Assembly (NCBI GenBank): GCA_030696435.1
Contig: JAUYSF010000366.1
Location: 1-14,341, forward strand
Direction: 5' to 3'
Origin: Desulfoprunum sp.
Lineage (GTDB): Bacteria; Desulfobacterota; Desulfobulbia; Desulfobulbales; Desulfocapsaceae
DNA: 14,341 bases
The translations under genes and the position numbers were made by a program. Under the pieces are notes generated by a model. It worked only from the letters and a program-made list of their open reading frames with translations. It searched no databases and was not told where the DNA came from. Below are positions 2 through 14,341 of the stretch, piece after piece. How positions within the stretch are numbered: the stretch's first letter is position 1; every line of letters starts with the position of its first letter.

Positions 2-871
2 GTCTGGACAAGCGCCAACGCACACACGGTAAGCATCGATCAGGGAATTGGCGTTGTGCCCTATAATGGTGCCATCGAGGTTAAACCGATTGCGGATACC
101 GATTACACCATCACCGCCACCAACAGCCACGGCAGCACCAGCCAGACCATCCACATCAAGGTCCTCGATCCGCTGCCGGCCCTTACCCTCACTGCAACCC
201 CGGATGCCGTTTGGCCCGGCAGCAGTGTAGTGCTCAGCTGGACTTGCGAACATACCCAATCCTGCACTATCGATCAGGGCATTGGTGAAGTGGATCTGAA
301 CGGCACTCTTACCGTGACACCGGGTGTAACCACCACCTATACCCTGACCGCGAAAAATGTCGAAGGGACTTCCACAAGCAAGGCGACGGTAACCGTAAAA
401 CGGGCCGGAATCACCTTGGATTCTCCCTTCGAGGCGATTGAGCCGGGAGGCACTGCTACCCTCAAATGGACCACCAACGATGCGGAAGATTGCACCATCG
501 ATCAAGGTATCGGCACGGTGGATCTGAACGGTACGAAGTCCCTGTCGCCAACAGTCACCACCGTCTATACCCTCACCTGCCATAGCCATGGCACCACCGC
601 CACGGCGCCTTTTACCGTGCATGTTAATGATTCCACTGCAAAACCCGTAGCCCAGCTTACGGCCGGTGCAACGGCCATCCATCAGGGTCAGTCCGTCACC
701 CTGAGCTGGTATTCCGGAAACGGCTCGGAATTCCATATCGATAACGGTATTGGCAAGGTTGCCTACCGGGGCACCCTGGCGGTATCGCCCGCCCATACCA
801 CCGCCTATACCTTCACGGTAATCGGACCGGCCGGTGTTGCCCGCTCCGAGGTCACGGTTCAGGTACTCGGC
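2..871 (+). repeat. Four tandem Ig-like protein repeats of about 75-81 residues
   Basis: Units are at about 2-169 (partial), 170-403, 404-628 and 629-871. Each carries a 'L-W' strand, a near-invariant 'IDxGIGxV' core, an 'NG' turn, and 'TTxYTxT' before a closing 'TVxV' strand. The DNA of the core is also similar between units (atcgatcagg/atcgatcaag), suggesting duplication within the gene. Units B and C have a Cys before the IDQGIG core. Such modules act as stalks in surface proteins; that role is inferred. Confidence 0.85.
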
Positions 872-2479
872 GATCCGGCCGCTCAGCCGCAGGGATCGTT
901 CGGCAAGGCCTATGAGGATCTGATCCCAGCCGACGCCACGGTAGAGAAGTACGAGGCCCGTCGGTTTGCCCTGGTTAAGGGAAGTGTCCAGGATATCCAT
1001 GGTCAGCCATTGGCCGGTATCACGGTTACCATGCTTGATCATCCGGAGTACGGCAGCACAGTCACCACCACAGAGGGCGAATACACCCTGCCGGTGGAAG
1101 GCGGCGCCGGTATGACCGTCGTCTATCGCAAGGCAGGCCTATTGCCCAGCCAACGCCAGGTCTACGTGCCGTGGAACGATGTCGCTCTGATCAAACCGGT
1201 GCAGATGATCGCCGAGGATTCAAGCAGTACCACGGTGCATTTCGACGGCAATGCCGATACCGTTGTCACCCATCGAGCCGGCGTGGTCACCGATCAGTTC
1301 GGCAGCCGGGCCATGACCATGGTCTTCCGAGGTGACAATACGGCCTATATGGTCGACGAGAAGGGAGCGACAGTCAAGGAAATGCCGACCATCGTCACCC
1401 GCGCCACTGAATACAGCACGCCGCAATCGATGCCGGCGGAACTGCCCAAGATCTCGGCCTATACTTACTGCGCCGAGCTGACCGTCGATGGCGCTCAGCG
1501 GGTCAGGTTTGCCAAGCCGGTAGTCACCTTTGTCGAGAACTTCCTCGGTTTTGCGGTTGGGCAGGCCGTGCCTCTGGGCTACTACGACCGTGATCGAGGC
1601 GAGTGGATCGCCGAACCCAACGGCTTGGTCGTCAAACTTTTAGACAGCGACAGCAATGGCGTGGTCGATGGCCTCGATAAAGACGGCGACGGCACGGCCG
1701 ACGACCTGAACGACGACGGCGACGTGCATGACGAGGTACGTGGGCTTGAAGATGCCGCGATCTATGTCCCTGGGGCTACCTTTTGGCGGGCCGAGATTCG
1801 TCACTTCTCGCCTTGGGATTGGAACTGGTGCACCTATGAAAGCCTTATGAACCTGTTCGGCCACGGCAAACCACAAGTGGATGGCCAAACCTGCAAAGAT
1901 GGCAGCACATGTGTCGGTTCCTCGGTGAGCAATGAGTCCCGCATCTTCCATGAAGATATCGGTATTCCCGGAACCGGGTTTAGCCTGTCCTATGTCAGCG
2001 ACCGGACCGATGGCTATAAGACCCGGTTCACGGTGCCGGCCAGCGGGCCGGAAATTCCCGATGACCTCAAACGGATCGTCGTCGAAGTCGATGTCGCCGG
2101 CCGTCTGTTGAGCCAGACCCTGGAGGCGAAACCGAACCAGATAGCCGAGTTCCTCTGGGATGGCCTCGATTTCCGGGGCCAGAAGGTCGACCACAAGGTC
2201 ACCGCCCATGTGAAGATCGGCTACGTTTTCGCTTCGGTCTATATGGAGTCCAATTATCTCAAGATGTCCTTTGCCGAGTTCGGCACGGCCATCACTCAGG
2301 TTCCGACCAGGGACGAGGTGATCAGCTGGCAGCAAAGCGAGATGATCATCAACGTGGCGGGGAAAGGCCACGGTCTGGCCCAGGGCTGGTCGATCTCGGC
2401 CCACCATATTCTGAGCCCGACCGACCCCTCGACCCTGTATAAGGGCGATGGCTCCATCACCCGCAACATCACCTCGGTG

Positions 2480-3560
2480 ATGAGCACCGTGGCGGGCAAT
2501 GGCGAGGAAGGCTGGCCGCAGACCGGCAACCAGGCCTTGCAGACCCCGTTCACGAGCCCGGTCAGCGTAGTGAACGACAGCGCCGGCGATCTCTATGTCG
2601 CCAACCAGATCCACGCCAGTGTCGTTAAGATCAAACGGGACGGCACCGTCGAGGTGCTGGCCGGAGGAATAGCCGGGCAGAAGGAAGAGGACGGTATCGA
2701 CGCCCGCGAGGCCCAGCTGCAGATGCCCTCCGATCTGGCCCTGGATTCACGCGGCCGACTCTATATCGCCGATGCCGGTAGTTGTAAGATCCGCCGCATC
2801 GACGAAAAGGGCATCATCACCACCATAGCCGGCAACGGCACCTGCAAGTCGAGCGGCGACGACGGCCCGGCCCTGCAGGCTGAGATCACGCCGAACAGCC
2901 TGGCAGTCGACGATTTCGGCAACGTCTACTTCATCGAGAGTACCTCATGTGTCGGTGGCGAGGTCGATCCGGTCACCGGCGTCTGTACCGGCGGTACCAC
3001 CGTCGAGGGCAGTTACCGGGTGCGCAAGGTCTCGACCAATGGCCAAATCGCTACCGTGGTCGGGACCGGCGAGAAATACGATCCCAATGTCCATACAACT
3101 ATTGGCGATGAGGGACCGGCGAGTGCCGCGGTCCTGGTTAATCCCACCTCGCTGAGCATCGATCCGGATGGCAATATTTACCTGGCCGACGGCTCGCGGA
3201 TCCGCAAGATCAACACCAGCGGCCTGATCACCACAGTAGCCGGCAGCGGTGCCTCCGGCTACAGCGGTGACGGCGGTCTGGCCAAAGACGCCAGGATCAC
3301 CCTGGCCTCGGGCATCACCTTTGACCGCAGCGGCAACTTCTACTTCTCGCAGTTCTATGGCAACGGCGATGTGGTTCGCAAGGTGACGAGCAACGGTTAT
3401 ATCTCCACCGTGGCCGGCAAGGGCACACCGGGGCTCGATGGCGACAACGGCCCGGCTACCCATGCCCTGCTCAAGCAGCCCAACCGGGTGGCCATCGATC
3501 CGGCCGGTTTCATCTATATTCCGGATCGGGGCAATCACCTGATCCGCAAGGTGTCGATCG
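2480..3560 (+). repeat. Six NHL (beta-propeller) repeats
   Basis: Six units of about 55-65 residues follow the pattern 'ST/TTVAGxG...GDxGPA...AxLxxPxxLAxDxxGNxYxAD...xIRKI'. Clear examples are 'LALDSRGRLYIADAG' near 2740-2780, 'LSIDPDGNIYLADGS' near 3150-3195 and 'VAIDPAGFIYIPDRG' near 3490-3535. Six blades are enough for a closed propeller, as in teneurin/Rhs-type NHL domains located just before the YD shell. The order NHL then YD here matches that architecture. Confidence 0.85.
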
Positions 3561-3951
3561 AGAGCTACAGCGAAAAGGAGACCCGCTTTGCCGAAGAAAA
3601 CGGCCTGGGCCACCTGATCTCGGCCGCCGGTCTGCACCTATCGACCTACGATCTGAAGACCGGGGTAACTCTGTTGAGTTTTGGCTACGATACGGAGAAC
3701 CGGCTGATCTCGATTACCGACCAGTTTGGCCGGGTGACCAGCATTGTGCGGTTGGGCGACGGCACAGCCAGTGCCATCGTCTCCCCGACGGTCTGCGTAC
3801 CGAGCTAAGCATCGACAGCCTTAACCAGCTCACCAAGATGAACTATCCCGGTAACGAATCCTTCTCATTCGAGTACGGCAACAATGACGGTCTGCTGACC
3901 GCCAAGGTTGAACCGAACGGCAACCGCTTCGAGCATTTCTTCGACACCAAT

Positions 3952-4323
3952 GCAGCATGGCCTCCTTACCCGAACCACCAGTCCGGCAAACGCTCTATCG
4001 ACATGTTGCCCCTAATGGAAGCCTGCGTGGTGACGGTGAAAAACTGTTGGAGGGTAAACGAAAATAAACTTGTAATGACGGCTAGATGGGATGAAAAGAA
4101 GACGCTACTTTGCACTTGGTTGCACGAATGTTGGGGTTACCCCAACTACGTCGTCGCCAAGCGTTTCACAAAACGGCAACAGATGCAGTGGAGCCCGAAG
4201 GGAGCCCATTTGCTCTTGCAGATGAGGACACGGGTACTTAACGGGGAATTAGAACAAACGTTCCGGGATTGGCATCCCGGTTTTCGGGTGAGGGGCGATA
4301 CAAAACTCACAGTCGCGGCTTAG
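3952..4323 (+). mobile_element. Insertion-sequence scar with C-terminal transposase remnant
   Basis: The open frame that continues after the Rhs part changes character at about 3952. Its last part, roughly 4095-4323, reads 'KRFTKRQQMQWSPKGAH', then 'LLLQMRTRVLNGELE' and 'FRDWHPGFR', ending at TAG 4321-4323. This resembles the conserved C-terminus of a DDE transposase group (QQMxW, GAHxLLQxRTxVLN, FRxWxPGFR). I recognise the pattern but do not assign an IS family. The N-terminal catalytic part is absent and 3952-4095 has no recognisable coding content, so this is an internal-deletion remnant. No matching left inverted repeat is visible. Base composition is lower in GC than both flanks. It separates two genes that are each damaged at this point. 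Confidence 0.65.
4130..4146. repeat. Short perfect inverted repeat in the transposase remnant
   Basis: Arms GTTGGGG (4130-4136) and CCCCAAC (4140-4146) are separated by three bases. There is no U-tract after either arm, so it is not called a terminator. It may mark a deletion joint within the element or be chance. Confidence 0.4.
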
Positions 4324-5559
4324 CCTCCCCTGGTTTTGCATGCTCTCTGATCCCTTGGTGAAAACCTCAAGACTCTCTCTGGCTATAGCAAGTTCTTCAT
4401 TGGTGGGGATGATCCAGATCTGGATTCGGCTGTTCGCGCTACTTATCAGGACTGGTTCTTTCTCACATCGGAGGTTGGCAGCTATATCGAGTTCTATGCC
4501 GAACTGCTCGAGCCCGGTCAACGATTTCTGTCTGACAATGGCATCATTCTCGCCTATTCCGGCGGTAAAGACGATGGCATCGACATGGCCAAGTACTGCC
4601 AGGTAGGCGCCGATGTACTTGCGGTTCCGGTAAGTCTGGACCTCAAGGGCCAGGAGTGCCCGTTCGTTGCCGGTCTGGATCGCGGCATGAATATCGCGCA
4701 TGTCGTTCATGCCGCAGAGGCCCTTGAGACCGGAGTCATTGTTCAGCATCCGGTCGATGGCTTCAATATCCATGCCGGCGTTTCTGGCAAGAAATGAGTG
4801 GATGGCCGGATCAACATCGCCACTGCGGGTGCCCATGACCAGGCCTTCCAAGGGGGTCATGCCCAGCGTCGTATCGATGCTCAATCCCTGTTCGATAGCA
4901 GTCATGGAGCAGCCGTTACCCAAATGGATAGTGATGAGGTTGCATTGCCCAAGTTGCCTGCCAAGCAGCCTGGCACACTCGCCGGCGACATATTTATGCG
5001 AAGTCCCGTGAAAACCATATCTGCGAATTCTATGACGTTCATACATTTCGTAGGGCAGGGCATAGAGATAGGCCCGGGCGGGAATCGACTGGTGAAAGGC
5101 GGTGTCAAAGACGGCAACCTGCGGGATGCCGGGAAAGAGTTCCCGGGCCACTCTGATACCGTCGAGGTTGGCGGGATTGTGCAACGGCGCCAGTGGGCTG
5201 ATTCTTTCAATAATGGCGATCAGCTCATCGTTGATCAGGGTCGGGTGGCGCACATATTCGCCGCCGTGCACCACTCGATGGCCGATGGCATCGATGTCGG
5301 TGAAATCCCGGATGACCCCCTTGTCCGGGTCGGCCAGGAGGTTGATCACCAGGCGCATACCGTCCTCGTGATCGGCAATAGGGCGTTCGAGTCTCAGTTT
5401 CCGGCACCGGTCCGTACCCGGTCTGAGTGTGCACTGCAGCAATCCTTCAGATTTGCCGATCTTTTCCACCAGCCCTGTTGCCAGGAGTGATTCGTCCTCC
5501 ATGTCAAGGAGTTGGAATTTGATTGATGAACTTCCGGAGTTAATAACCAAGATTCGCAT
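4249..5559 (-). CDS. ackA: Acetate kinase with aberrant C-terminal tail
   Basis: Acetate/propionate kinase (acyl-phosphate + ADP to carboxylate + ATP), cytosolic, ASKHA fold. Family motifs are all present: NSGSSSIKF (7-15), GHRVVHGG (93-100), FDTAFHQSIP (151-160), YGFHGTSH (181-188), HLGNGCS (212-218), GTRSGD (243-248), FTAGIGEND (331-339) and IPTNEEL (384-390). The start ATG at 5559 has an AGGGG motif 8 bases upstream. Family members usually end near residue 400; this one runs to 436. The last 36 residues are encoded antisense to the transposase remnant, so the native stop was lost and the tail is junk from the scar. The core should still be active because every active-site motif lies before residue 391. 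As the last gene of the BMC cluster it fits the ATP-yielding step after PduL. A -10-like TATAAT upstream suggests it can also be transcribed alone. Confidence 0.95.
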   Translation of the reverse strand: MRILVINSGSSSIKFQLLDMEDESLLATGLVEKIGKSEGLLQCTLRPGTDRCRKLRLERPIADHEDGMRLVINLLADPDKGVIRDFTDIDAIGHRVVHGGEYVRHPTLINDELIAIIERISPLAPLHNPANLDGIRVARELFPGIPQVAVFDTAFHQSIPARAYLYALPYEMYERHRIRRYGFHGTSHKYVAGECARLLGRQLGQCNLITIHLGNGCSMTAIEQGLSIDTTLGMTPLEGLVMGTRSGDVDPAIHSFLARNAGMDIEAIDRMLNNDSGLKGLCGMNDMRDIHAAIQTGNERALLALEVQTYRNRKYIGAYLAVLGHVDAIVFTAGIGENDAIVRQKSLTGLEQFGIELDIAANLRCEKEPVLISSANSRIQIWIIPTNEELAIARESLEVFTKGSESMQNQGRLSRDCEFCIAPHPKTGMPIPERLF

Positions 5560-5682: not shown

Positions 5683-6402
5683 TCAAAATACGTAGGTGAA
5701 GCTCAGGCCAACCATGACCTCTTCCTCGATCCCGCCGAGATCCTTGGCGTCGTCGCTCAGCGGCACGGAATAGGTGACGGCCGGAGTGAGGCTTATTTTT
5801 TTGTTGATCGACCAATCGACGGCGGCGCGAAATTCGGCCATCTGGAAATTGCTGTAGGCTTCACTGGTTGAATAGTTTTCAGCATTGTAACCTACGGTGC
5901 TGCCCAGGCTCAGGCCCAGGTTTTCCATCAGGCTGAAACGGTGACTCACCCCGAGAGTCGCCCACACCCCGGTTTCAGTTGACGCATCCCAGTCGTAATA
6001 TACTTTCAAGGTGGGTGCCAGCAGGGTGTTCAGGGTACAGGCCACATAGAGTTCGTTGGTGTCCGGGACTCCATCGTAGACGTAGTAGGCGTTGCCAAAA
6101 CTTAATGATACCAAATCATTAACGGCGTAGGTGTAATCAAGGGTGATGTCAGTCTCGGTCACTTCGCTGGAATTTTCATCGTAATTAGCCCACAAACTGA
6201 CTTTAAAGCCGCCAAAACCCAAGTCGAGTCCGGGTTGGACCACAAAATCGGCGTTAGGCAGGACATCGATACCACGGGAAAGATACATGTTGTTGACTCC
6301 GACATAGACATCGCCTGTTACAGCGGCCTCTTCAGCCATGGCGTTCAAGCCGGTGGAAACGAGCAGGGTTGCGGTTGCCACAATGATATAGAACTTTTTC
6401 AT
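5683..6402 (-). CDS. TorF-family putative porin (Gcw_chp-like outer-membrane beta-barrel)
   Basis: A 239-residue exported protein. Residues 1-23 form a signal peptide: KK at 2-3, a hydrophobic core, then AMA before a predicted cut at 23/24. The mature part is alternating beta-strand sequence with many aromatic residues and ends in 'LSFTYVF', a terminal Phe as in outer-membrane barrels. The segment 'YLSRGIDVLPNADFVVQPGL' resembles the RG-containing opening motif of the TorF/Gcw_chp family. The start has a GAGGAG motif 5 bases upstream. It lies on the operon strand between the pduT-like gene and ackA, 153 bases after the former, with a hairpin behind it. BMC operons usually carry inner-membrane facilitators rather than outer-membrane pores, so a link to substrate or product passage is only an inference from position. 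Confidence 0.8.
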   Translation of the reverse strand: MKKFYIIVATATLLVSTGLNAMAEEAAVTGDVYVGVNNMYLSRGIDVLPNADFVVQPGLDLGFGGFKVSLWANYDENSSEVTETDITLDYTYAVNDLVSLSFGNAYYVYDGVPDTNELYVACTLNTLLAPTLKVYYDWDASTETGVWATLGVSHRFSLMENLGLSLGSTVGYNAENYSTSEAYSNFQMAEFRAAVDWSINKKISLTPAVTYSVPLSDDAKDLGGIEEEVMVGLSFTYVF

Positions 6403-6555: not shown

Positions 6556-7107
6556 TTACAGTAGGGTTTGCTTCAGCTCCCCGGCGGGAGACGGGATCAC
6601 CACATGGCTGACCACCGGGCTCGTTTCGCGAATACGTTCGATTCCGGCTTGTACCGAGGCCTCTACTGAGGCGACATCGCCGGTCAGGGTGACGAAGGCC
6701 TTGCCCGCCAGTCCTGCAGCAGAGCGGATTTCGATGAGCTCGACCTGGCCCGCCTTGGCGGCGGCATCGGCGGCGAGAATGCAGGACGCGGTGGAGTACG
6801 TCTCTATCACCCCGAGGGCCTGGATCTGCAGGACCGTGCCGGTGCCGGCAAGGGCCGGCAGGATTGCCGGATGGATACTGGCGAGGGTAAACCAGTCGAT
6901 GACCATCTCGCCGCCGGTCCGGCGGCCGACGTCAACTGCTGTGGTCACCGAGCCGGTATCGCCACCAACCATGATCAGGTAGCGTCCCGGACAGGTGGTG
7001 CGGGCGATAAGCAGCTCGATCGCGGCTGCCTTGATCATGGTGTCGGCGGTGAGGATGCCGATGGCAATACTGTTCAGTTCTACGCAGCCTATCGTTTTCA
7101 GGGACAT
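6556..7107 (-). CDS. pduT: PduT-like tandem-domain BMC shell protein with Fe-S cysteine
   Basis: A 183-residue protein made of two BMC folds (about 1-90 and 93-183), forming pseudohexameric trimers in shell facets. It matches PduT closely in layout: 'IGCVELNSIAIG' at the start, 'TTCPGRYLIMVGGD' around 37-50, 'ASIHPAILPAL' at the domain link, 'ALGVIETYSTASCILAAD' opening domain 2, and 'VSHVVIPSPA' near the end. Cys39 in the TCPGRY loop corresponds to the PduT cysteine (Cys38 in Salmonella, as I recall) that binds one [4Fe-4S] cluster at the pore through three subunits. The start ATG overlaps the end of the pduS-like gene by 10 bases, with GAGG 6 bases before it. Coupling with PduS fits the known PduS-PduT partnership that passes electrons across the shell. 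Strong call. Confidence 0.93.
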   Translation of the reverse strand: MSLKTIGCVELNSIAIGILTADTMIKAAAIELLIARTTCPGRYLIMVGGDTGSVTTAVDVGRRTGGEMVIDWFTLASIHPAILPALAGTGTVLQIQALGVIETYSTASCILAADAAAKAGQVELIEIRSAAGLAGKAFVTLTGDVASVEASVQAGIERIRETSPVVSHVVIPSPAGELKQTLL

Positions 7108-8444
7108 GGCAAGCCTCGGTTGGTGGATTCGATGGTGATGGCGGTTTCGGTCACCGAGGTAACCCGGCCGTCAATACTGGCATGAATGCGGGCACCAAGG
7201 GCCTGGCCGGGAATATCGCCGATCAGATCGCCGGTCGTAACAATCTCGCCGCGGGCCACCACGGGCACGGCCGGTGCGCCGATATGCTGCTGCAGGCGGA
7301 GAATGACGCGGGACGGCCTGACTTCCCGGGTATCGTAAGCCGGGTGGCTGTGATAAGCGGCGAGACCAAGCCGCTCAAGCAAACGGCTGGTCGGGATTTT
7401 GCGTTCCTGCCGTAACGCCCTGAGTTGCATGGGCGCATTGCCGGGCTGCCACCTAATCCCTTTGGCACGCAGCTCCTGTTTGATTTGGGCATTGATCTCG
7501 CGGGGCGAAAGGAGCATCGGGCAGGCATATTTTTCACAGATGCCGCACTCGGAGCAGAGCAGGGCCTCGCGGGCAATCTCTCCGGTCAGCAGCTGCGTCC
7601 CGAAGCCGCGCATCAGTTTATGGGGATGGAGGGAGTGGCCGAGCAGATAGCGTGGGCAGAGATCTGTGCACATTGTGCACTGACAGCAGACTGTCTGGGT
7701 GAACCGGCGCAGTTTCTCGGGATCCATGACTTTCGCCCGTACCACGTTATGATCATCCGGCAGCACCAGGATGCCGCTGGTGGTTTTGGTGACCGGTTGA
7801 TCACTGTCGGCCAGGACCCTGCCCATCATCGGTCCGCCGTCGATGATTCGAAAGGCGCGAACCGTCGCCCCACCGGCCAGGGCGATGATGTCGCCGACCG
7901 GGGTTCCCACCGGCACCCGCAGGACCAGGGGGGTCCGAACTTCCCCGGCGACGGTGAGAAAGCGATGGGTGACCGGCAGGCCGGCCGCCGCCCGGTCGAT
8001 ATTACAGAGGGATTCAACGTTGGCGACCAGAACGCCGACCTGCAACGGCAGACCGGCCTCCGGGACCGTGCGGCCGAGCACCTCGTTGACCAGCACGTGC
8101 TCATCGCCGGCCGGGTAAAAATCACCCAGCTCAAAAAACGTCAAGCGGTCATCGACGGCTACGGCCCGGCGCAACTCGGCAACGGCCCCCCGGTGTTTCC
8201 CTTTCACACAAACGATACCGCGAGCGGCGCCGGTATGATCGAGAACACGCACAAGGCCGTGGAGCATGCTCGCCGCCTCGTGCTCCATCAGCACGATATC
8301 ACTGGCGAGGAGCGGCTCGCAGGAAGCGCCGTTGACCAGCACCGTGTCCACCTTGGCCTGCACCTTGACATGGGTGGGAAAGCCGGCACCGCCGGCGCCG
8401 ACCACCCCGGCCTTTCTGATCAGTTCATCGAGTGCTGCCGGCAT
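7098..8444 (-). CDS. pduS: PduS-like RnfC-type flavo/iron-sulfur protein (BMC electron transfer)
   Basis: About 448 residues from the chosen start. It has the RnfC/NuoF-type 'GAGGAGFPTHVK' nucleotide/flavin motif (16-27), 'NGASCEP' (38-44), an SLBB-like segment (about 160-195), and two 4Fe-4S motifs: CxxCxxCxxxCP (253, 256, 259, 263) and CxxCxxCxxxxCP (297, 300, 303, 308). A small barrel-sandwich-like segment closes the C-terminus. In Pdu systems PduS reduces cob(III)alamin and docks on PduT; in other BMCs the same family likely reoxidises NADH. I chose ATG at 8444 because GGAG lies 8 bases upstream and the family begins shortly before the glycine motif. An alternative TTG at 8480, also with GGGAG upstream, would add 12 residues. 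The next gene, the pduT-like one, overlaps its 3' end. Confidence 0.92.
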   Translation of the reverse strand: MPAALDELIRKAGVVGAGGAGFPTHVKVQAKVDTVLVNGASCEPLLASDIVLMEHEAASMLHGLVRVLDHTGAARGIVCVKGKHRGAVAELRRAVAVDDRLTFFELGDFYPAGDEHVLVNEVLGRTVPEAGLPLQVGVLVANVESLCNIDRAAAGLPVTHRFLTVAGEVRTPLVLRVPVGTPVGDIIALAGGATVRAFRIIDGGPMMGRVLADSDQPVTKTTSGILVLPDDHNVVRAKVMDPEKLRRFTQTVCCQCTMCTDLCPRYLLGHSLHPHKLMRGFGTQLLTGEIAREALLCSECGICEKYACPMLLSPREINAQIKQELRAKGIRWQPGNAPMQLRALRQERKIPTSRLLERLGLAAYHSHPAYDTREVRPSRVILRLQQHIGAPAVPVVARGEIVTTGDLIGDIPGQALGARIHASIDGRVTSVTETAITIESTNRGLPCP

Positions 8445-8500
8445 GGTCGATTCTCCGTAATCCACTGTTTTCCCGTTCAATCCCCATCTCCCGCCGGCCC

Positions 8501-8953
8501 TTACTGATCCTGCCAGTCGGCCGGATAGGTCACGTACATAAAGCGGGTTGAATCCGGGGTGCTGAAGGTAATCGACGAGTTTTTCGGGATAAGCAGGATG
8601 TCGCCGGCCCTGGCCGTAACGGTGCGGCCGTCGATGCGAATATCGAGGATGCCGTCGATGATATAGTCGATTTCATCGTACTTCAGGGTCCAGTCAAATG
8701 AGGAACCGCCGCGCATCGCCATGATGCCGGAGCCGAGCCGGGGGCTTTCAGCCCGGCTGAACACATCCTGGATAAACACCTGGGTACCGGGCTTACCGGT
8801 GTCAAAAGGCGGTGGATCTATCGTGGTGGCCCGGACGGCGATGATGCCGCTGGCTGCATCCACCTGTTTATTGATTTCCTGGCTGCGATTGCCAAGGGTT
8901 TCGCTGATCACTTTGCGGATCAGCTGCTCAAGGGTCTTTTCATCAAGGGTCAT
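8501..8953 (-). CDS. eutQ: Short EutQ-like cupin with N-terminal encapsulation-peptide-like helix
   Basis: 150 residues, against about 230 for enterobacterial EutQ. Residues about 57-150 match the EutQ cupin: 'FDWTLKYDEIDYIIDG' (86-101), 'ARAGDILLIPKNSSITF' (114-130), and 'RFMYVTYPADWQ' near the end. EutQ has been described as a BMC-associated acetate kinase needed in anaerobic ethanolamine use. The usual N-terminal domain of about 90-100 residues is absent. Instead the protein opens with the amphipathic helix 'LEQLIRKVISETL' (8-20), very like the PduP/PduD lumen-targeting peptides, followed by a polar linker (21-35). A similar helix sits inside full-length EutQ just before the cupin, so this protein may be EutQ cut at that helix. 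The start ATG has GAGG 6 bases upstream. Whether catalytic activity survives without the N-terminal domain is unknown. Confidence 0.88.
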   Translation of the reverse strand: MTLDEKTLEQLIRKVISETLGNRSQEINKQVDAASGIIAVRATTIDPPPFDTGKPGTQVFIQDVFSRAESPRLGSGIMAMRGGSSFDWTLKYDEIDYIIDGILDIRIDGRTVTARAGDILLIPKNSSITFSTPDSTRFMYVTYPADWQDQ

Positions 8954-9011
8954 GGTTTACCTCATCGACTTCCGGGACAATCCTTCAGGTGACACTGCAC
9001 ATCCTGAGACC

Positions 9012-9026
9012 TTATCCCCTGGATAA
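9012..9026. repeat. Small inverted repeat after the BMC-H stop
   Basis: TTATCC (9012-9017) and GGATAA (9021-9026) form a 6-bp stem with a CCT loop, about 8 bases downstream of the BMC-H stop on the minus strand. The T run precedes the stem in the transcript rather than following it, so it is not an intrinsic terminator. Confidence 0.3.
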
Positions 9027-9033
9027 AAAACGC

Positions 9034-9324
9034 TTATTCCTGGATCGGTTTGGCGATCGGCAGGATTGCCTCCACATCGCCATGGGGTCTTGGAATCACA
9101 TGGACGCTGACCAGTTCTCCAACCCGGGTTGCGGCGCTGGCCCCGGCCTCGGTGGCAGCTTTGACCGCGCCGACATCGCCCCGAACCATGACTGTGACCA
9201 GCCCACTGCCAACCTGTTCCCGGCCGATCAAGCGGACATTGGCGGCCTTTACCATGGCGTCGGCTGCTTCAATGGCGGCGACTAAACCCCTTGTTTCTAT
9301 CATTCCCAGTGCATTCATGGTCAT
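9034..9324 (-). CDS. BMC-H shell protein (PduA/EutM-like), GSG pore
   Basis: 96 residues, single BMC domain, forming hexamers of the shell facets. Hallmarks are '[20 protein letters not shown]' (5-24), '[17 protein letters not shown]' (38-54) and '[18 protein letters not shown]' (68-85). The pore loop is G39-S40-G41, as in PduA, whose serine lines the pore for small polar metabolites. It is about 85% identical by eye to the other BMC-H in this operon. An AGGAG motif lies 4 bases before the ATG at 9324 and 10 before a second in-frame ATG at 9318, so the start could be two codons later. A strong intercistronic hairpin stands directly upstream, which may set its high expression. Confidence 0.96.
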
Positions 9325-9346
9325 TTATCTCCTGTGTTGGTTTTTA

Positions 9347-9395
9347 GTGCCTTAGAAATTCATTTCTTGTTTTTTAATGAATTTCGTGAAGGCAC
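9347..9395 (-). other. Long intercistronic mRNA hairpin before the BMC-H gene
   Basis: Outer arms GTGCCTT (9347-9353) and AAGGCAC (9389-9395) and inner perfect 10-bp arms GAAATTCATT (9355-9364) and AATGAATTTC (9376-9385) are separated only by A versus GTG. The loop is 11 bases. In the transcript it starts at the base after the stop codon of the Cys-rich gene and ends 22 bases before the next start codon. No T-tract follows on the minus strand. This is best read as an RNA stabiliser or processing site that could raise shell-protein output relative to upstream genes; partial termination is the alternative. Confidence 0.7.
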
Positions 9396-9803
9396 TTATA
9401 CCCCCTTGTGGGGTGTTAGTTGACTGACGATGTTCAGACAGACCGCCTCCCGGCGGGTTTTATCGGTAATCCCCATGGTGATCATAATCTCCTCGGCCCG
9501 GACCAAAACCCGACACAGCGAACCCGGGCCGGTCGCCTGACAATCGGCTGCCGACGGGCAAGCTTTGGTGGCGTCACGGCAGCACGTGCTTTGCTGGCTG
9601 CTCAATGCAACCTTCTGAAGGGCCTCTTGGGCACCTGGCGGCTTTGTTCCAGGTCGCGGTCCGTAGCTGATCGCTATGCCGCGATTGCGCAGCAGGTCTT
9701 TGGCGCCCGGACTGAGGATCATATCCTTGGTAATAACAATGGTCTTGGTATCTATTTCGATGTGGGCGTCAACATTGTGAGCGCCGATTAAGTGCTTTGC
9801 CAT
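9396..9803 (-). CDS. Small Cys-rich protein with EutQ/EutT-N-like domain
   Basis: 135 residues, no confident family. Residues about 18-48 ('TIVITKDMILSPGAKDLL', then 'RNRGIAISYG') follow the pattern 'T/SP-A---L----I-V/I' seen at the N-terminus of EutT-type adenosyltransferases and of full-length EutQ; the EutT-like protein of this operon has 'ILTPAATQYLKEMRVTVK' at the same place. A Pro-rich linker follows, then a Cys cluster (C74, C75, C82, C88, C97, plus C122) and a helical C-terminus (about 98-128). The Cys spacing does not match a standard ferredoxin motif but could bind metal or a cluster. It lies 4 bases after the BMC-T stop, with GGTG about 6 bases before its ATG. It may be the detached N-terminal domain of EutQ, since the EutQ here lacks one. 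Function unassigned. Confidence 0.8.
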   Translation of the reverse strand: MAKHLIGAHNVDAHIEIDTKTIVITKDMILSPGAKDLLRNRGIAISYGPRPGTKPPGAQEALQKVALSSQQSTCCRDATKACPSAADCQATGPGSLCRVLVRAEEIMITMGITDKTRREAVCLNIVSQLTPHKGV

Positions 9804-9807
9804 ACTT

Positions 9808-10356
9808 TCACCCCAGTATCCTGGTCAGTTCACCCAGCACGGCCTGGTCCGGTGCCGCCAGGACCATCGTGTCGATGAGGTTGTTTGCTAAAACGTCCAC
9901 TGCCGCTCTCACGCCGGCCTCGACCGAGGACAGTTCGCCGCAGAAAACACAATACGATTTGCCGTTGATACCCTGGCCGGTCACCAGTTTCGCCAGGCTG
10001 ACGGCGGCAGCCTTCACCGCGGCATCGGCGGCGACAATCCCTGAGGTGGCGGTCCTTGCTTCGACAACGGCGATGGCCTGGCCTAGCCGCACGCCGGAAG
10101 GTCGGCGCAGCGCATCAAGGACTTCGCTGCTGACTTGGGGAATGAGATATTTGCCGATGATTCGCGATCCGTCTTCGGCGGCAACGGCCAGAGCCGCTGC
10201 CACCGCCGCCCTATCCCCTTCGACCTGGATCATATAGCGCCCACCGCAGATCGTCGTGGCACGAAGCAGGTTGACGTCAGCCTCCTTGACCATGCGATCG
10301 GCAAGACCCACGCCGGCGGCGATACCGGCCGTTTCGACAAGTCCCAGGGCCGGCAT
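9808..10356 (-). CDS. Second tandem-domain BMC-T shell protein with candidate Fe-S cysteine
   Basis: 182 residues, two BMC folds (about 1-88 and 92-182): 'ALGLVETAGIAAGVGLADRM' (3-22), 'TTICGGRYMIQVEGD' (34-48), then 'AIAVVEARTATSGIVAADAA' (94-113). Cys37 sits where PduT has its cluster ligand, but the loop reads ICGGRY rather than the PduT-type CPG. Domain 2 adds C136 and C139 in 'SYCVFCG', not typical of PduT. It could therefore be an Fe-S-bearing facet protein distinct from the PduT-like one encoded later in the operon. The start ATG overlaps the vertex-protein stop by one base (TGATG) without its own clear SD, implying translational coupling. Confidence 0.9.
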   Translation of the reverse strand: MPALGLVETAGIAAGVGLADRMVKEADVNLLRATTICGGRYMIQVEGDRAAVAAALAVAAEDGSRIIGKYLIPQVSSEVLDALRRPSGVRLGQAIAVVEARTATSGIVAADAAVKAAAVSLAKLVTGQGINGKSYCVFCGELSSVEAGVRAAVDVLANNLIDTMVLAAPDQAVLGELTRILG

Positions 10357-10628
10357 CAGTCGCGGGAAATTTCTACGGCATCAATGATGCCAATGATGGT
10401 TGCATCAACCGGTGCTTGGTTCACCGCTATCGACTTGCGGGCGGCGCTGCCTGTTGCCACCAGTACCTTCTCGCCGATACCGGCACCAACAAAGTCGACG
10501 GCCACGAGGGTATCGAGATCTTTGTCGGAAAAAGGATCGATGCGTTGCACGACCATCAGTTTTAAACCGTTCAAGGATTCCTCCTTGCGGGTAGCCCAAA
10601 CATTACCGATAACTTTACCTATGAGCAT
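10356..10628 (-). CDS. eutN: EutN/CcmL-family pentameric BMC vertex protein
   Basis: 90 residues, the usual size. Opens 'MLIGKVIGNVWATRKEESL' and carries 'GLKLMVVQ', 'DTLVAVDFVGAGIGEKVLVA' and a closing 'VDATIIGIIDAVE', the pattern of the OB-like BMC-P fold that caps the shell vertices as pentamers. GGGGG lies 5-9 bases before the ATG and overlaps the end of the pduM-like gene (TAG stop at 10637). Its stop overlaps the next start by one base. Only one vertex gene is seen in this window; others may lie upstream. Confidence 0.95.
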   Translation of the reverse strand: MLIGKVIGNVWATRKEESLNGLKLMVVQRIDPFSDKDLDTLVAVDFVGAGIGEKVLVATGSAARKSIAVNQAPVDATIIGIIDAVEISRD

Positions 10629-10636
10629 AGTGCCCC

Positions 10637-11221
10637 CTATTTTCGTTCGAGAAGCAAATGGTTGTCCCGCGCGCAGTCTACGGCAAGCGGAGTGAGGCGC
10701 CAGGTGCGGCCAACCTGCAGACGAGTGACGCCATCGGCCAGCAGGGCCCGGATGTCGCGTTCGGTAATCAGCCGTCTGTCGGTGAAAGTTTTGTCCGGCT
10801 GGACTGGGCGGTATGGCCGGATGCCAAAATCGGCCAATTGTTGTGCCTGGGATTCATAGAGTCTGTACAAGGCCGGCGGCGCTGTTTCACGGTAGCGCCT
10901 GTGTTCGTAGGCCAACACCTCGATGGGGCGACCGGCCAGCACCTCGGCGAGCACGGCCTGCGCCACCGGGTCGCTCGCCGTGCCCCGGGCAAGATCTGCC
11001 AGCTGGGCGATGCGCAGGAAAGGCATGATCCGCCGGGTCGCCTGGGGTGGCAGGTCGGGGTCGTCGCAGTACACCAGCCGGTCGCCGTCCAGCTCGACCG
11101 GCAACTGCAGCTGGGCCGCTGCCGTCCTCGGTGCCAGAATGAGGGTGGTCCGCCTTGTATCCTGCTGCAGGTGCCGATGAATTTCGCCGGTTAAGCGGCT
11201 GATTAAGGCTTCAATATCCAT
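10637..11221 (-). CDS. pduM: PduM-like microcompartment assembly protein
   Basis: 194 residues from ATG 11221. The C-terminal third ('LITERDIRALLADGVTRLQV', then 'LTPLAVDCARDNHLLLERK') matches the end of PduM, where a similar 'R---------V----TA-ARDxA----I-L' pattern occurs. The N-terminus 'DIEALISRLTGEIHRHLQ' is an amphipathic helix like the PduM opening and like lumen-targeting peptides. PduM is needed for normal Pdu compartment structure, with unknown biochemical role. The chosen start follows from homology length and an 11-bp overlap with the pduL end; the SD is weak (AGAGAA). A longer upstream reading (to 11353) runs antisense-like through pduL and has no homology. It is about 30 residues longer than enterobacterial PduM. 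Confidence 0.82.
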   Translation of the reverse strand: MDIEALISRLTGEIHRHLQQDTRRTTLILAPRTAAAQLQLPVELDGDRLVYCDDPDLPPQATRRIMPFLRIAQLADLARGTASDPVAQAVLAEVLAGRPIEVLAYEHRRYRETAPPALYRLYESQAQQLADFGIRPYRPVQPDKTFTDRRLITERDIRALLADGVTRLQVGRTWRLTPLAVDCARDNHLLLERK

Positions 11222-11879
11222 GACTTTGTTCTCTTTGACCGGCAATGATATGGCCCGATTTATCAGGTTCCCAGCCACAGGCGTTGCCTTCATCAAAATC
11301 GATGTGCATGGCCAGGCGAAAATCGTCGGCGACCCGGACCAGGACATCTTCAAGGATCAACGGCCGCTCGCAGTCCATGCGCACCCGCACCAGCTGCCGA
11401 TCTTTTATCCCTTGTTGCTGTGCATAATCGCTTGGCATATGGATATGCCGGGCGGCGACAATAACTCCCTCGTCGAGACCGACCAGGCCCTGGTGGGAGG
11501 CCAGGATAATCCCCGGTGTCCCGGGCAGATTGCCGGAATTCCGGATGGGTGCCCGTACCCCGAGAGTGCGCGCGTCGGTGAGAGAGATCTCAACCTGGGT
11601 CCGATTACGGCTCGGGCCGAGGATCGCCACATTATCGAGGATTCCTTTCGGCCCGATGAGCCGCACCCGCTCCTTGCAGAGAAACTGGCCCGGTTGGCTG
11701 AGTGGCCGATCAAAGGTGAGATCACTACCGAAAAGTTGGTTGGCATGTTCAGCACTGAGATGAATGTGGCGGGCGGACAGCTCTACGGGAATGGCCCGGC
11801 CGTTCATCCGGTCGATCATGGCCACGACCCCTGCGACAATCGTGTGCACCAGGGAGGCATCGATGGTTTGCGGGTTCAT
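11211..11879 (-). CDS. pduL: PduL-type phosphotransacylase
   Basis: 222 residues. Converts acyl-CoA + Pi to acyl-phosphate + CoA in the compartment lumen, recycling CoA for the aldehyde dehydrogenase. The two beta-barrel halves each carry the zinc-binding His motif: 'SARHIHLS' (35-42) and 'AARHIHMP' (142-149). Also seen are 'NLPGTPGIIL' and the C-terminal 'LAMHIDFDEGNACG'. Residues 1-25 form a helix ('IDASLVHTIVAGVVAMID') that may serve as the N-terminal encapsulation peptide known in BMC-associated PduL. The start at 11879 is supported by AGGAG 7 bases upstream and an ATGA overlap with the preceding stop; an ATG 7 codons earlier has no SD. Its end overlaps the pduM-like gene by 11 bases. Confidence 0.96.
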   Translation of the reverse strand: MNPQTIDASLVHTIVAGVVAMIDRMNGRAIPVELSARHIHLSAEHANQLFGSDLTFDRPLSQPGQFLCKERVRLIGPKGILDNVAILGPSRNRTQVEISLTDARTLGVRAPIRNSGNLPGTPGIILASHQGLVGLDEGVIVAARHIHMPSDYAQQQGIKDRQLVRVRMDCERPLILEDVLVRVADDFRLAMHIDFDEGNACGWEPDKSGHIIAGQREQSHGY

Positions 11880-12580
11880 TGGTATGCTCCTGTCTGCCAT
11901 TTCAGCATCATCACATAGACCGCACTGCTCATCCGGTTGAGGGCTAAAAGCAGATCGGGTCGTTCAACCCTTGCGCCGTGAACAAAGGCGGTAACCGCCG
12001 CCAGTTCGACCTTGCGTACCTCGGTGCGCAAGAGATTCAATTCAAGCAGCATCCGGTCCATCCGGTGGTCGGGAAGGACATGCCCGATGCCGAAATGACG
12101 TTGGGGATGATGAGATCTGTCGCGTAGTTCCGCCTCGTTACAGCTCATCATCTCAACCTTTTCGAGCGGGACATTCAACACCTCCGACTTAAGGATATTC
12201 CGGCTGAGGTCAAGTACATCAGCGAGGTCGGCCACCAGCGCCGCCTTCTTACCGGCCAGTTTCTGGAGGAGAATGATTTCGGCCTGAAGGTGGTCGAGAA
12301 GGCCGCGCAGAAGGATGCGTGGATGATCTTTGACCACCAGGGTATGGCCGTGCAATTGGGTCATGTGCTCCGCTTTCTTGGCGGCACCGGTCCCAAGGCT
12401 CTCGACCGGCCGGCGTCCGTTCTGAGCATGCTCGCCGGTCGTACGCTTGACCGTCACCCGCATCTCTTTGAGATACTGGGTTGCAGCCGGGGTTAAAATC
12501 TGCCCGGTTTCGAGAGCAATGGACTCAGGAGCACCCGGTCTGAAAGTGCTCCTGAGATAGGCTTCGGTGATGACTTTCAT
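11876..12580 (-). CDS. eutT: EutT-like cobalamin adenosyltransferase
   Basis: 234 residues, four-helix-bundle corrinoid adenosyltransferase type, ATP + cob(I)alamin to adenosylcobalamin. The C-terminal half aligns well with EutT: 'CNEAELRDRSHHPQRHFG' (147-164), 'LNLLRTEVRKVE' (181-192) and 'ERPDLLLALNRMSSAVYVMM' (206-225). The N-terminal 'ITEAYLR' (4-10) and 'ILTPAATQYLKEMRV' (28-42) also match. Salmonella EutT has an HX11CCX2C metal motif between these parts; here the region has no cysteine (only Cys147 in the whole protein), so it would belong to the metal-independent type. This gene points to a B12-dependent signature enzyme upstream, although such genes also occur as passengers in glycyl-radical BMC loci. 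It ends with a 4-bp ATGA overlap into pduL and starts 21 bases after the BMC-H stop with only a weak SD. Confidence 0.88.
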   Translation of the reverse strand: MKVITEAYLRSTFRPGAPESIALETGQILTPAATQYLKEMRVTVKRTTGEHAQNGRRPVESLGTGAAKKAEHMTQLHGHTLVVKDHPRILLRGLLDHLQAEIILLQKLAGKKAALVADLADVLDLSRNILKSEVLNVPLEKVEMMSCNEAELRDRSHHPQRHFGIGHVLPDHRMDRMLLELNLLRTEVRKVELAAVTAFVHGARVERPDLLLALNRMSSAVYVMMLKWQTGAYQ

Positions 12581-12601: not shown

Positions 12602-12868
12602 TTACAGGATACTTTCCACATCGCCATGGGGGCGGGGAATGACATGCACGCTGACCAGCTCGCCAACCCGTTCCGCTGCGGCCGCACCAGCATCGGTGGC
12701 GGCTTTGACCGCGCCGACATCGCCACGGACCATGACGGTCACCAGTCCGGCCCCGACCTGCTTGCTACCGACCAGTTTAACGTTGGCGGCTTTGACCATG
12801 GCGTCCGCTGCTTCAATTGCGCCGACGAATCCTCGTGTTTCAATGAGTCCTAATGCATTTCCTGACAT
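12602..12868 (-). CDS. BMC-H shell protein (PduA/EutM-like), GAG pore
   Basis: 88 residues from ATG 12868. '[20 protein letters not shown]' (5-24), '[17 protein letters not shown]' (38-54) and '[18 protein letters not shown]' (68-85) define a single-domain hexameric BMC protein. The start was set at 12868 because AGGAG lies 6 bases upstream; the longer reading from 12886 would contain that SD within its codons. The pore loop is G39-A40-G41, so the pore-lining residue is alanine rather than the serine of its near-identical paralogue at 9034-9324. It lacks the short C-terminal extension of the paralogue, ending at ILE-SIL. Confidence 0.96.
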
Positions 12869-12923
12869 GTTTTTCTCCTGTTTCATCTAGTGTTTATTGG
12901 TGAATCATCTCTGATGGTCATTT

Positions 12924-14341
12924 TTAGGTCATGGCCTTGATCTGGGTCATGATCATTTTGGTGAGCCGGTCGATATCCAACTCTGCTGCCACGGGGGGCG
13001 GACTGATTGTGGATTCCGCTACAGGATCAACCATCCCGTAGGCAACCCGCCGGATGTTGAACAGGTGGAGGGTATCGACATTGTCCGAGGTGGAACTGCC
13101 GCCCACCGTTCCGCAGCCAAGGGTGAGCGACGGAGTGAGATTGGTGCTGAGACCAACGGCTCCATGGGTTGTGGGGGTGTTGACCAATAATCGCGACACC
13201 GGCTTTTTCAGGGCAAACTGGCGAATGACTTCTTCATTGTTCGAATGGATACCCAGGGTATGGCCGATACCGCCCTGCTCGAGCAGTTTGAAACACAATT
13301 CGCAGGCCTCCTGCCAGTCGGCCACGGTGTAGAAACCGATCAGGGCGCAGAGCTTTTCCTTGGAGAAGGGGTACCCAGGGCCGACCCCTTCCTCTTCGCA
13401 TACCAGCAGCCTGGTTCCTGCTGGGATGCTGATTGCGGCAAGCGCGGCGATGGTCTCGGCGTTCTTGCCGACAATGGCCGGGTTCATACTGCCGTCGGGA
13501 CGCTCCATAATGGCCTTTACCCGCCGGAGAGATTCGCCGGTAAGGAAGTAGCCGCCGGCGGCAATAAGCGTGGCCTTCACCTGATCAGCGCGGATTCGTT
13601 CTGTGATGATGGCCTGCTCGGAGGCGCAGACCGTGCCGTTGTCGAACAGTTTGCTGACCATGATGCGGCGGATGGCGGCGTCGATATCGGCGCTCCGTTC
13701 GATATAAACCGGCACGTTTCCGGCACCGACACCGAGGGCCGGGGTGCCGGAACTGTAGGCCGCTCGGATCATCGCCGGTCCGCCGGTGGCAAGGATCAGA
13801 TCGGCCCGGCGCATCAGCTCGCGGGTGCCGTCGACAGAAGGGTAGCACATCACCGTGACCAGATCGGCGGGCAGCCCCTGCTCGACCAGAACACCCTGGA
13901 CCAGTTCAACGACCGCCGTTATGCATTTCAAGGCACTTGGATGGGGGCTGAAGACGACGGCGTTGCCGGCCTTGAGGCTGATCAGGCTTTTATAGATCGT
14001 GGTGGAGGTCGGGTTGGTCGACGGGATCAGGGCGGCAATGACTCCGGCGGGTGTGGCAATCTCGATGATGCCCCTTTCCCGGTCTTCGCGGAGAACGCCG
14101 ATGGTTTTCAAGGGGAGGATATGCTGCCGGATTTTTTCGCTGGCCAACAGGTTTTTTTGGACCTTGTCCTGCCAGCGACCAAAGCCGGTCTCGGCCACGG
14201 CCATTTTTGCCAGCTCTTCGGCCTTGGCGGAAGCTTTACGGCCGACGGCCTCGACCAGATCGTCGATTTGCGCCGGGTTCAGTTTGGCAAGGCGGGTCAG
14301 CGCGCTCCTGGCGCAGCGTACCAAGGTCCGTGCTTCCTGGA
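12924..14341 (-). CDS. CoA-acylating aldehyde dehydrogenase (EutE/PduP/CutF family), 5'-partial, C-terminal encapsulation peptide
   Basis: At least 472 residues in frame; the frame stays open to the window edge, so the start is upstream. It oxidises an aldehyde to acyl-CoA with NAD+ and CoA in the lumen. Residues (counted from the TTG at 14324): 'ETGFGRWQDKVQKN' (45-58), 'AALIPSTNPTSTTIYK' (97-112), 'NAVVFSPHPSA' (121-131), 'GVGAGNVPVYIE' (198-209), and 'FDNGTVCASEQAII' (227-240) with catalytic Cys233. After the catalytic fold ends near 'RRVAYGMVD' there is a Ser/Pro linker and a final helix 'IDRLTKMIMTQIKAM' (about 451-465), a typical encapsulation peptide at the C-terminus, whereas PduP has it at the N-terminus. 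C-terminal peptides are known from dehydrogenases of several non-Pdu BMC types including glycyl-radical ones. Aldehyde chain length cannot be read from this. Confidence 0.95.
   Translation of the reverse strand, partial: QEARTLVRCARSALTRLAKLNPAQIDDLVEAVGRKASAKAEELAKMAVAETGFGRWQDKVQKNLLASEKIRQHILPLKTIGVLREDRERGIIEIATPAGVIAALIPSTNPTSTTIYKSLISLKAGNAVVFSPHPSALKCITAVVELVQGVLVEQGLPADLVTVMCYPSVDGTRELMRRADLILATGGPAMIRAAYSSGTPALGVGAGNVPVYIERSADIDAAIRRIMVSKLFDNGTVCASEQAIITERIRADQVKATLIAAGGYFLTGESLRRVKAIMERPDGSMNPAIVGKNAETIAALAAISIPAGTRLLVCEEEGVGPGYPFSKEKLCALIGFYTVADWQEACELCFKLLEQGGIGHTLGIHSNNEEVIRQFALKKPVSRLLVNTPTTHGAVGLSTNLTPSLTLGCGTVGGSSTSDNVDTLHLFNIRRVAYGMVDPVAESTISPPPVAAELDIDRLTKMIMTQIKAMT

Follow-up and report, generated by a model that had tools for sequence, protein, structure and literature searches.

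Two proteins have been published as linkers between the shell and the enzyme core of bacterial microcompartments, EutQ and PduM. Residues 1–99 of EutQ from Salmonella and E. coli comprise an N-terminal module followed by a flexible linker and two helices; in Salmonella, helices H1 and H2 (residues 9–41, inside the module) associate with the shell, H3 and H4 (residues 62–99) associate with cargo peptides, and shell and cargo come apart when residues 9–99 are deleted (PMC12487888). PduM carries an encapsulation signal at its N-terminus (PMC12108088), and its deletion causes a partial separation of shell and core; in a Salmonella mutant without the PduB N-terminus PduM colocalized with cargo and not with the shell (PMC9132943). 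A later study doubts that PduM and the PduB N-terminus form the link jointly (PMC12108088). Short forms of EutQ have also been described, namely those of the Gram-positive Enterococcus faecalis and Listeria, which are without the first three helices (PMC12487888), and CD1925 of C. difficile, which has about 157 residues (PMC3483176). For species whose EutQ is without these three helices, the 2025 EutQ study leaves the question of assembly open (PMC12487888). Neither PMC12487888 nor PMC9132943 names both EutQ and PduM, the word EutQ is absent from PMC12108088, and a stated link of EutQ to PduM or to TIGR02536 was found in none of the passages covered.

We analyzed a stretch of 14,341 nucleotides from a Desulfoprunum genome, here called the window, the minus strand of which holds the second half of an ethanolamine-utilization microcompartment operon. 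The 135-residue cysteine-containing protein at 9396–9803 (minus strand) is named SMALL in what follows. The features of the operon are these.

12924–14339, minus strand: acetaldehyde dehydrogenase of the EutE type, truncated at the end of the contig
12602–12886, minus strand: EutM-like BMC-H shell protein
11876–12580, minus strand: EutT-like adenosyltransferase, with a module at residues 2–43
11211–11900, minus strand: PduL-type phosphotransacylase
10637–11353, minus strand: TIGR02536-like protein, with a C-terminal module at about 10646–10774; probable start near 11221, by inspection
10356–10628, minus strand: EutN vertex shell protein
9808–10356, minus strand: PduT-like BMC-T shell protein, directly upstream of SMALL
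9396–9803, minus strand: SMALL, a free module protein of 135 residues with six cysteines; proposed stand-alone shell-to-core linker
9669–9797, minus strand: module of SMALL (residues 3–45), a domain of the EutQ/EutT/TIGR02536/PduM type
9513–9668, minus strand: Cys-rich linker of SMALL (residues 46–97)
9414–9461, minus strand: last helix of SMALL (about residues 115–130), encapsulation-peptide-like, predicted from the sequence pattern
9034–9324, minus strand: BMC-H shell protein between SMALL and the cupin
8501–8953, minus strand: short EutQ cupin of 150 residues (Pfam and NCBI EutQ models)
8894–8944, minus strand: N-terminal helix of the cupin (about residues 4–20), encapsulation-peptide-like by sequence
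7098–8480, minus strand: PduS/RnfC-like electron-transfer protein
6556–7107, minus strand: second two-BMC-domain (BMC-T) shell protein
4249–5559, minus strand: acetate kinase

Read from high to low coordinates, the operon thus runs acetaldehyde dehydrogenase, BMC-H, EutT-like protein, PduL, TIGR02536-like protein, EutN, PduT-like BMC-T and SMALL, and then BMC-H, cupin, PduS/RnfC-like protein, second BMC-T, outer-membrane-like protein and acetate kinase. The outer-membrane-like protein (5683–6402, minus strand), between the acetate kinase and the last BMC-T gene, has a weak DUF481 match. Contig C482 of the same assembly carries, one after the other, genes related to eutS, P, B, C, A, L and K, and the eutK relative ends 11 bases short of the contig end. 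The first half of the operon is probably on C482, and we infer that the two contigs adjoin. On the plus strand, a long reading frame that is open at its 5' end runs from position 2 to a stop at 3808 and encodes NHL and TTR-like domains of teneurin-like type, and a 161-residue open reading frame without a Pfam match (3838–4323) appears by eye to continue it; the region 2–4323, which converges on the operon, may be the decayed gene of an RHS/teneurin-type surface protein.

An earlier note on this DNA had placed SMALL two genes upstream of the cupin and had drawn attention to the motif SPGAKDLL and to six cysteines, and all of this is correct: a single BMC-H gene lies between the two, the motif occupies residues 31–38 and the cysteines are residues 74, 75, 82, 88, 97 and 122. 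SMALL belongs to an unnamed family with 58 protein-database matches at E ≤ 0.01, itself included. It gives no Pfam match at E ≤ 1, so it has no Cob_adeno_trans domain as in EutT, and no Pfam or NCBIfam model reaches its cut-off on the window's protein. The NCBIfam search returned a weak match of residues 5–45 to the tail of TIGR02536 (E 0.18), in which the 11.4 bits over the last 41 or so model positions do not reach the whole-protein cut-off of 152.6 bits; the PduM model (TIGR04493) is absent from the matches at E ≤ 1. Searches of PDB sequences with SMALL and with module profiles gave only unrelated-looking matches.

Members of the family are built of a module, a linker that varies and is often rich in cysteine, and a last helix that resembles encapsulation peptides. 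For this last comparison we used 83 unique termini from AldDH, PduL, EutC, TIGR02536-like proteins and cupins, which we take to be encapsulation peptides. The profile of the last helix scores at least 3 bits in 48% of them, compared with 4.0% of shuffled and 1.1% of internal windows; the statistical significance is overstated because the termini come from related loci, but the contrast is large. By their sequence pattern the last 40 or so residues of SMALL resemble two helices. Homology of this pair to helices 3 and 4 of the enterobacterial EutQ, in which they are fused to the cupin, was considered and rejected, as the score of −0.9 bits was reached or exceeded by 4463 of 8864 reported shuffles.

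The module, of about 43 residues, occurs on three proteins of the window, at the start of EutT, at the end of the TIGR02536-like protein and at the start of SMALL, and it is present also in E. coli EutQ and at the C-terminus of PduM. Iterated profile searches, seeded with columns 1–48 of an alignment of SMALL with four relatives from the database and run over the open reading frames of the window and ten fetched loci, gathered 27 copies (11 SMALL, 11 TIGR02536-like C-termini and 5 EutT N-termini). A profile made solely from the window and loci of its phylum, and containing no EutQ, scores E. coli EutQ (residues 3–38) at 18.7 bits and E. coli EutT at 13.8 bits, the next of 17 E. coli Eut proteins reaching 2.0 bits. 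None of 20,000 shuffles of EutQ residues 1–107 attained 18.7 bits (best 15.6), nor did any of 20,000 shuffles of EutT residues 1–95 attain 13.8 bits. These scores support the proposal, made before, that SMALL carries the N-domain module of EutQ and EutT. Outside its own family, a profile of enterobacterial EutQ scores highest on the C-terminus of a TIGR02536-like protein (26.4 bits, E 3.9e-7 in a search of 1546 open reading frames).

Pairwise the signals are fainter. A profile built from SMALL alone misses E. coli EutQ and gives a weak match to the fused form in Enterococcus raffinosus (10.9 bits, E 0.01), the profile-to-profile alignment of SMALL with EutQ residues 1–107 is co-linear and weak (probability 7.9%, E 0.0044), and single-family module profiles cross-match mostly weakly. 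Judged on sequence, the link between SMALL and EutQ goes via the other module proteins, with a homology that is firm when the set is taken as a whole and weak in pairwise comparison; it is likewise by way of the wider set, and not of SMALL alone, that the part holding the shell-associating H1 and H2 is recognized in SMALL. Fifteen genomes were chosen by hand, 11 with known microcompartment loci and 4 lacking EutN. Matches to the module profile at E ≤ 0.05 numbered 24 in this set, all in microcompartment loci and none in the 4 genomes that lack EutN.

A further module profile, A5 (20 rows), gave 12 matches on four named records. Cetobacterium, Acetoanaerobium and Fusobacterium have three each, all in the eut operon, and their trio is that of the window, i.e. 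EutT, TIGR02536-like protein and SMALL; the three in Listeria are EutT, TIGR02536 and PduM. The score of Listeria PduM with A5 exceeds all 10,000 shuffles and that of E. coli PduM was reached by 7 of 10,000, and the TIGR02536 profile gives 18.4 bits for the C-terminus of E. coli PduM; a profile of EutQ only does not find PduM (1.2 and −0.8 bits). PduM (TIGR04493/PF15953), the published structural linker of Pdu microcompartments, resembles SMALL in combining a module with an encapsulation signal, but in reversed order, signal first and module last, and with a middle part that SMALL is missing. The TIGR02536 family, present in all 16 SMALL loci of the window's phylum, has the module at its C-terminus and, unlike SMALL, a middle part of its own (about 190–280 residues in all). 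EutT has it at the N-terminus, as does SMALL, but continues into an adenosyltransferase domain. In E. coli EutT a CCxxC motif follows directly on the module; among 13 EutT-like sequences compared it was seen solely there, the Klebsiella window being misplaced by an early start of the open reading frame, and the EutT of the window (11876–12580, minus strand) is without it. Residues 46–65 of E. coli EutQ contain one cysteine.

Linking shell to core is the published role of both PduM and the N-domain of EutQ, and we therefore favor the view that SMALL is a microcompartment linker that stands alone, its module placed at the inner side of the shell and its last helix directed to the enzyme core, a reading in which our confidence is somewhat better than even. 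The module would dock on the inner face of the shell and the last helix would join the core by packing with encapsulation peptides, a flexible and often metal-capable Cys/His linker lying between the two. The N-domain would do the same job in enterobacterial EutQ, and so would the module in PduM and in the TIGR02536-like protein, where it sits at the other terminus, while the short EutQ cupin would enter the lumen on its own N-terminal helix. Behind this reading stand the homology of the module, its restriction to microcompartment loci in the genomes searched, the conserved gene order and the likeness of the last helix to encapsulation peptides, from which we infer that SMALL itself binds the shell, binds the core and links them. 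Against it count the modest score of E. coli PduM with the mixed profile, the faint direct match of SMALL to EutQ, a helix pair without homology to H3 and H4, the behavior of PduM in the mutant without the PduB N-terminus, the later doubt about a joint link by these two, and the loci with a short EutQ and no SMALL.

EutQ is module, peptide-binding helices and cupin, PduM is signal, middle part and module, and on the simplest reading SMALL would be the barest form of the same linker kind, with module, linker and signal-like helix. CsoS2, CcmN and residues 1–37 of PduB are other shell-to-core linkers with the same proposed job, likened here by role only (PMC12487888). The module joins by homology two linkers that were described separately, and it offers a testable answer for species with a short EutQ, in that other proteins of the operon carry it; SMALL may be the missing tether where EutQ is truncated. 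If the linker reading is true, a tag of about 45 residues could dock proteins inside engineered shells and the poorly understood role of PduM would gain a mechanism.

The cysteines suggest another function, in which SMALL is primarily a metal or Fe-S carrier that stores metal or serves as a redox relay between PduT and PduS, with a module that does no more than keep it in the shell. Cysteine makes up 10.0% of the linker in SMALL relatives versus 2.2% and 1.5% in the flanks, at least two linker cysteines are present in 53 of 71 sequences (a set that includes some duplicates) and some linkers are His-rich; of the 16 loci from the window's phylum, 15 have PduS downstream of SMALL and the other one is cut. 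A module protein is fused to a BFD-type [2Fe-2S] domain in L048, a microcompartment locus of another family (1242–1940, minus strand). Four cysteines are invariant in five near relatives of the window's protein; over the 71 sequences, however, the number and spacing of cysteines vary, 6 linkers have none and the Cys pattern is not conserved. Two of the three named SMALL loci (L053 and L058) yielded no PduS-like gene. Nor does a tie between the number of linker cysteines and the presence of PduT help, as the Mann-Whitney p of 0.019 is unreliable, the loci being related and L053 having a PduT-like protein. We regard this carrier function as unlikely. A broader proposal, in which the module is a general shell-docking plug of catabolic microcompartments (in EutQ, PduM, EutT, TIGR02536 and SMALL) and the tether of SMALL doubles as a metal or electron relay from the PduT pore to PduS via a metal- or Fe-S-loaded linker, strikes us as rather improbable.

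It could also be that the module binds something in the lumen, e.g. encapsulation peptides or itself, and organizes the core without touching the shell. PduM followed the cargo and not the shell in the mutant without the PduB N-terminus (PMC9132943), so the partner of the module may not be the shell itself, and EutT, an enzyme, carries the module as well. Against this, it is residues 9–41 of Salmonella EutQ that associate with the shell, the peptide-binding part being residues 62–99 (PMC12487888), and we consider a purely lumenal module distinctly improbable.

The cupin at 8501–8953 (minus strand, 150 residues) had been described as EutQ without its N-terminal domain, and the Pfam and NCBI EutQ models agree. 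Residues 4–149 match Pfam EutQ (PF06249) with E 2.8e-49, which makes it a EutQ-type cupin, and it is a relative of 4axo and 2pyt. Because the match to the NCBI model begins at position 87 of 233, the first 86 or so residues of EutQ are missing; the N-terminal shell-to-cargo domain, a property of the enterobacterial form only, is absent from the cupin. In E. coli EutQ, the Pfam model itself covers the protein from residue 85 onward, and a short EutQ is therefore not unusual. A LEQLIRKVISE-like pattern near the N-terminus is common to ten short cupins and lines up, by eye, with QLMEKV of EutQ H4, Leu-11 and Val-15 of the cupin falling on Leu-89 and Val-93 of Salmonella EutQ, two residues of H4 that are required to bind the peptide of EutC (PMC12487888). 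Profile comparison of termini bore out the resemblance of this helix to encapsulation peptides, and on its sequence the helix fits the earlier idea that it could target the cupin to the lumen.

Gene order was compared in 19 SMALL loci, 16 of the window's phylum and three named ones (two Fusobacteriota and one Bacillota), and these support the view that the Cys-rich protein is an unnamed microcompartment component. The order in the 16 loci is TIGR02536-like protein, EutN, (PduT), SMALL, (BMC-H), (cupin), PduS and BMC-T, where the genes in brackets are sometimes absent and one locus (L032) stops at the contig edge after the cupin. A short EutQ cupin is found in 8 of the 19 loci, of ethanolamine type, and no cupin in the stretch read of the other 11. 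Seven of the eight have an EutB relative (that of the window being on C482), and L032 is cut before the position of EutB. Nine of the 11 loci without a cupin have a close relative of the choline enzyme CutC; of the other two, L029 encodes a sulfopropanediol dehydratase and L030 showed no signature enzyme in the stretch read. At the other end of one choline-type locus (L027, 791–3220, plus strand) there is a second CutC-like glycyl radical enzyme reading frame of 809 residues.

The 257 genomes of one class contain 11 copies of SMALL, spread over 9 genomes, and 13 of EutN, spread over 11. SMALL is within about 1 kb of 11 of the 13 EutN genes; the remaining two EutN loci appear Pdu-like and have the module at the end of a flavoprotein-like protein. 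The same genomes contain five EutQ cupins (in four genomes), every one with SMALL within about 1 kb. The SMALL profile matched in 8 of 395 genomes drawn from the phylum, two of the matches not being of SMALL type (L041, a BFD fusion, and L042), and weak matches in the searches for relatives were L020, L021 and L042. A profile scan of contigs with SMALL and its five-row alignment found no relative, whereas the genome search did. A search with the EutQ region returned, among the best 120 of 470 matches, nearly all close enterobacterial copies.

Loci without SMALL divide into three with a fused EutQ (E. coli, Klebsiella and the choline locus of Enterococcus raffinosus), three with a short EutQ (L050, Listeria and C. 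difficile) and three without EutQ (L048, L085 and L086). The earlier note had held that SMALL and full-length EutQ should not share a locus, and indeed none of the 19 SMALL loci has a fused EutQ; this exclusion is suggestive and unproven, because only three fused loci are at hand, two of them near relatives. SMALL is not obligatory, since it is missing from the neighborhood of the short EutQ in C. difficile, Listeria and G583.

What remains of the suggestion that EutQ is split in two is that the cupin is without the N-domain and that SMALL has its module. An actual fission, in which SMALL and the cupin arose by breakage of one ancestral EutQ gene and function together as its two halves, would account for the company of SMALL beside all five cupins of the class and for the lack of a fused EutQ in the 19 SMALL loci, but we judge it very improbable, given the 11 cupin-less SMALL loci, the absence of any EutQ match at E ≤ 1e-15 from the five class genomes that hold six of these, the three loci with a short EutQ and no SMALL, the short EutQ forms already published for Gram-positive species, the presence of the module on EutT, the TIGR02536-like protein and PduM as well, a helix pair in SMALL that is not H3/H4 of EutQ, and an enterobacterial EutQ module that lies closer in score to TIGR02536-like C-termini than to SMALL.

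The module was met in several other contexts. In Acetoanaerobium, PduL and a TIGR02536/module part share one reading frame of 300 residues (L054, 13601–14503, plus strand), and the choline locus of E. raffinosus encodes, besides its fused EutQ, a second unnamed module protein in a reading frame of 194 residues (L056, 13701–14285, plus strand). Flavoprotein-type proteins end in the module in two Pdu-like loci (L085, 8512–9354, plus strand, and L086, 9638–10474, minus strand), and one of them weakly matches, at the module, an E3-binding domain (E 0.032).
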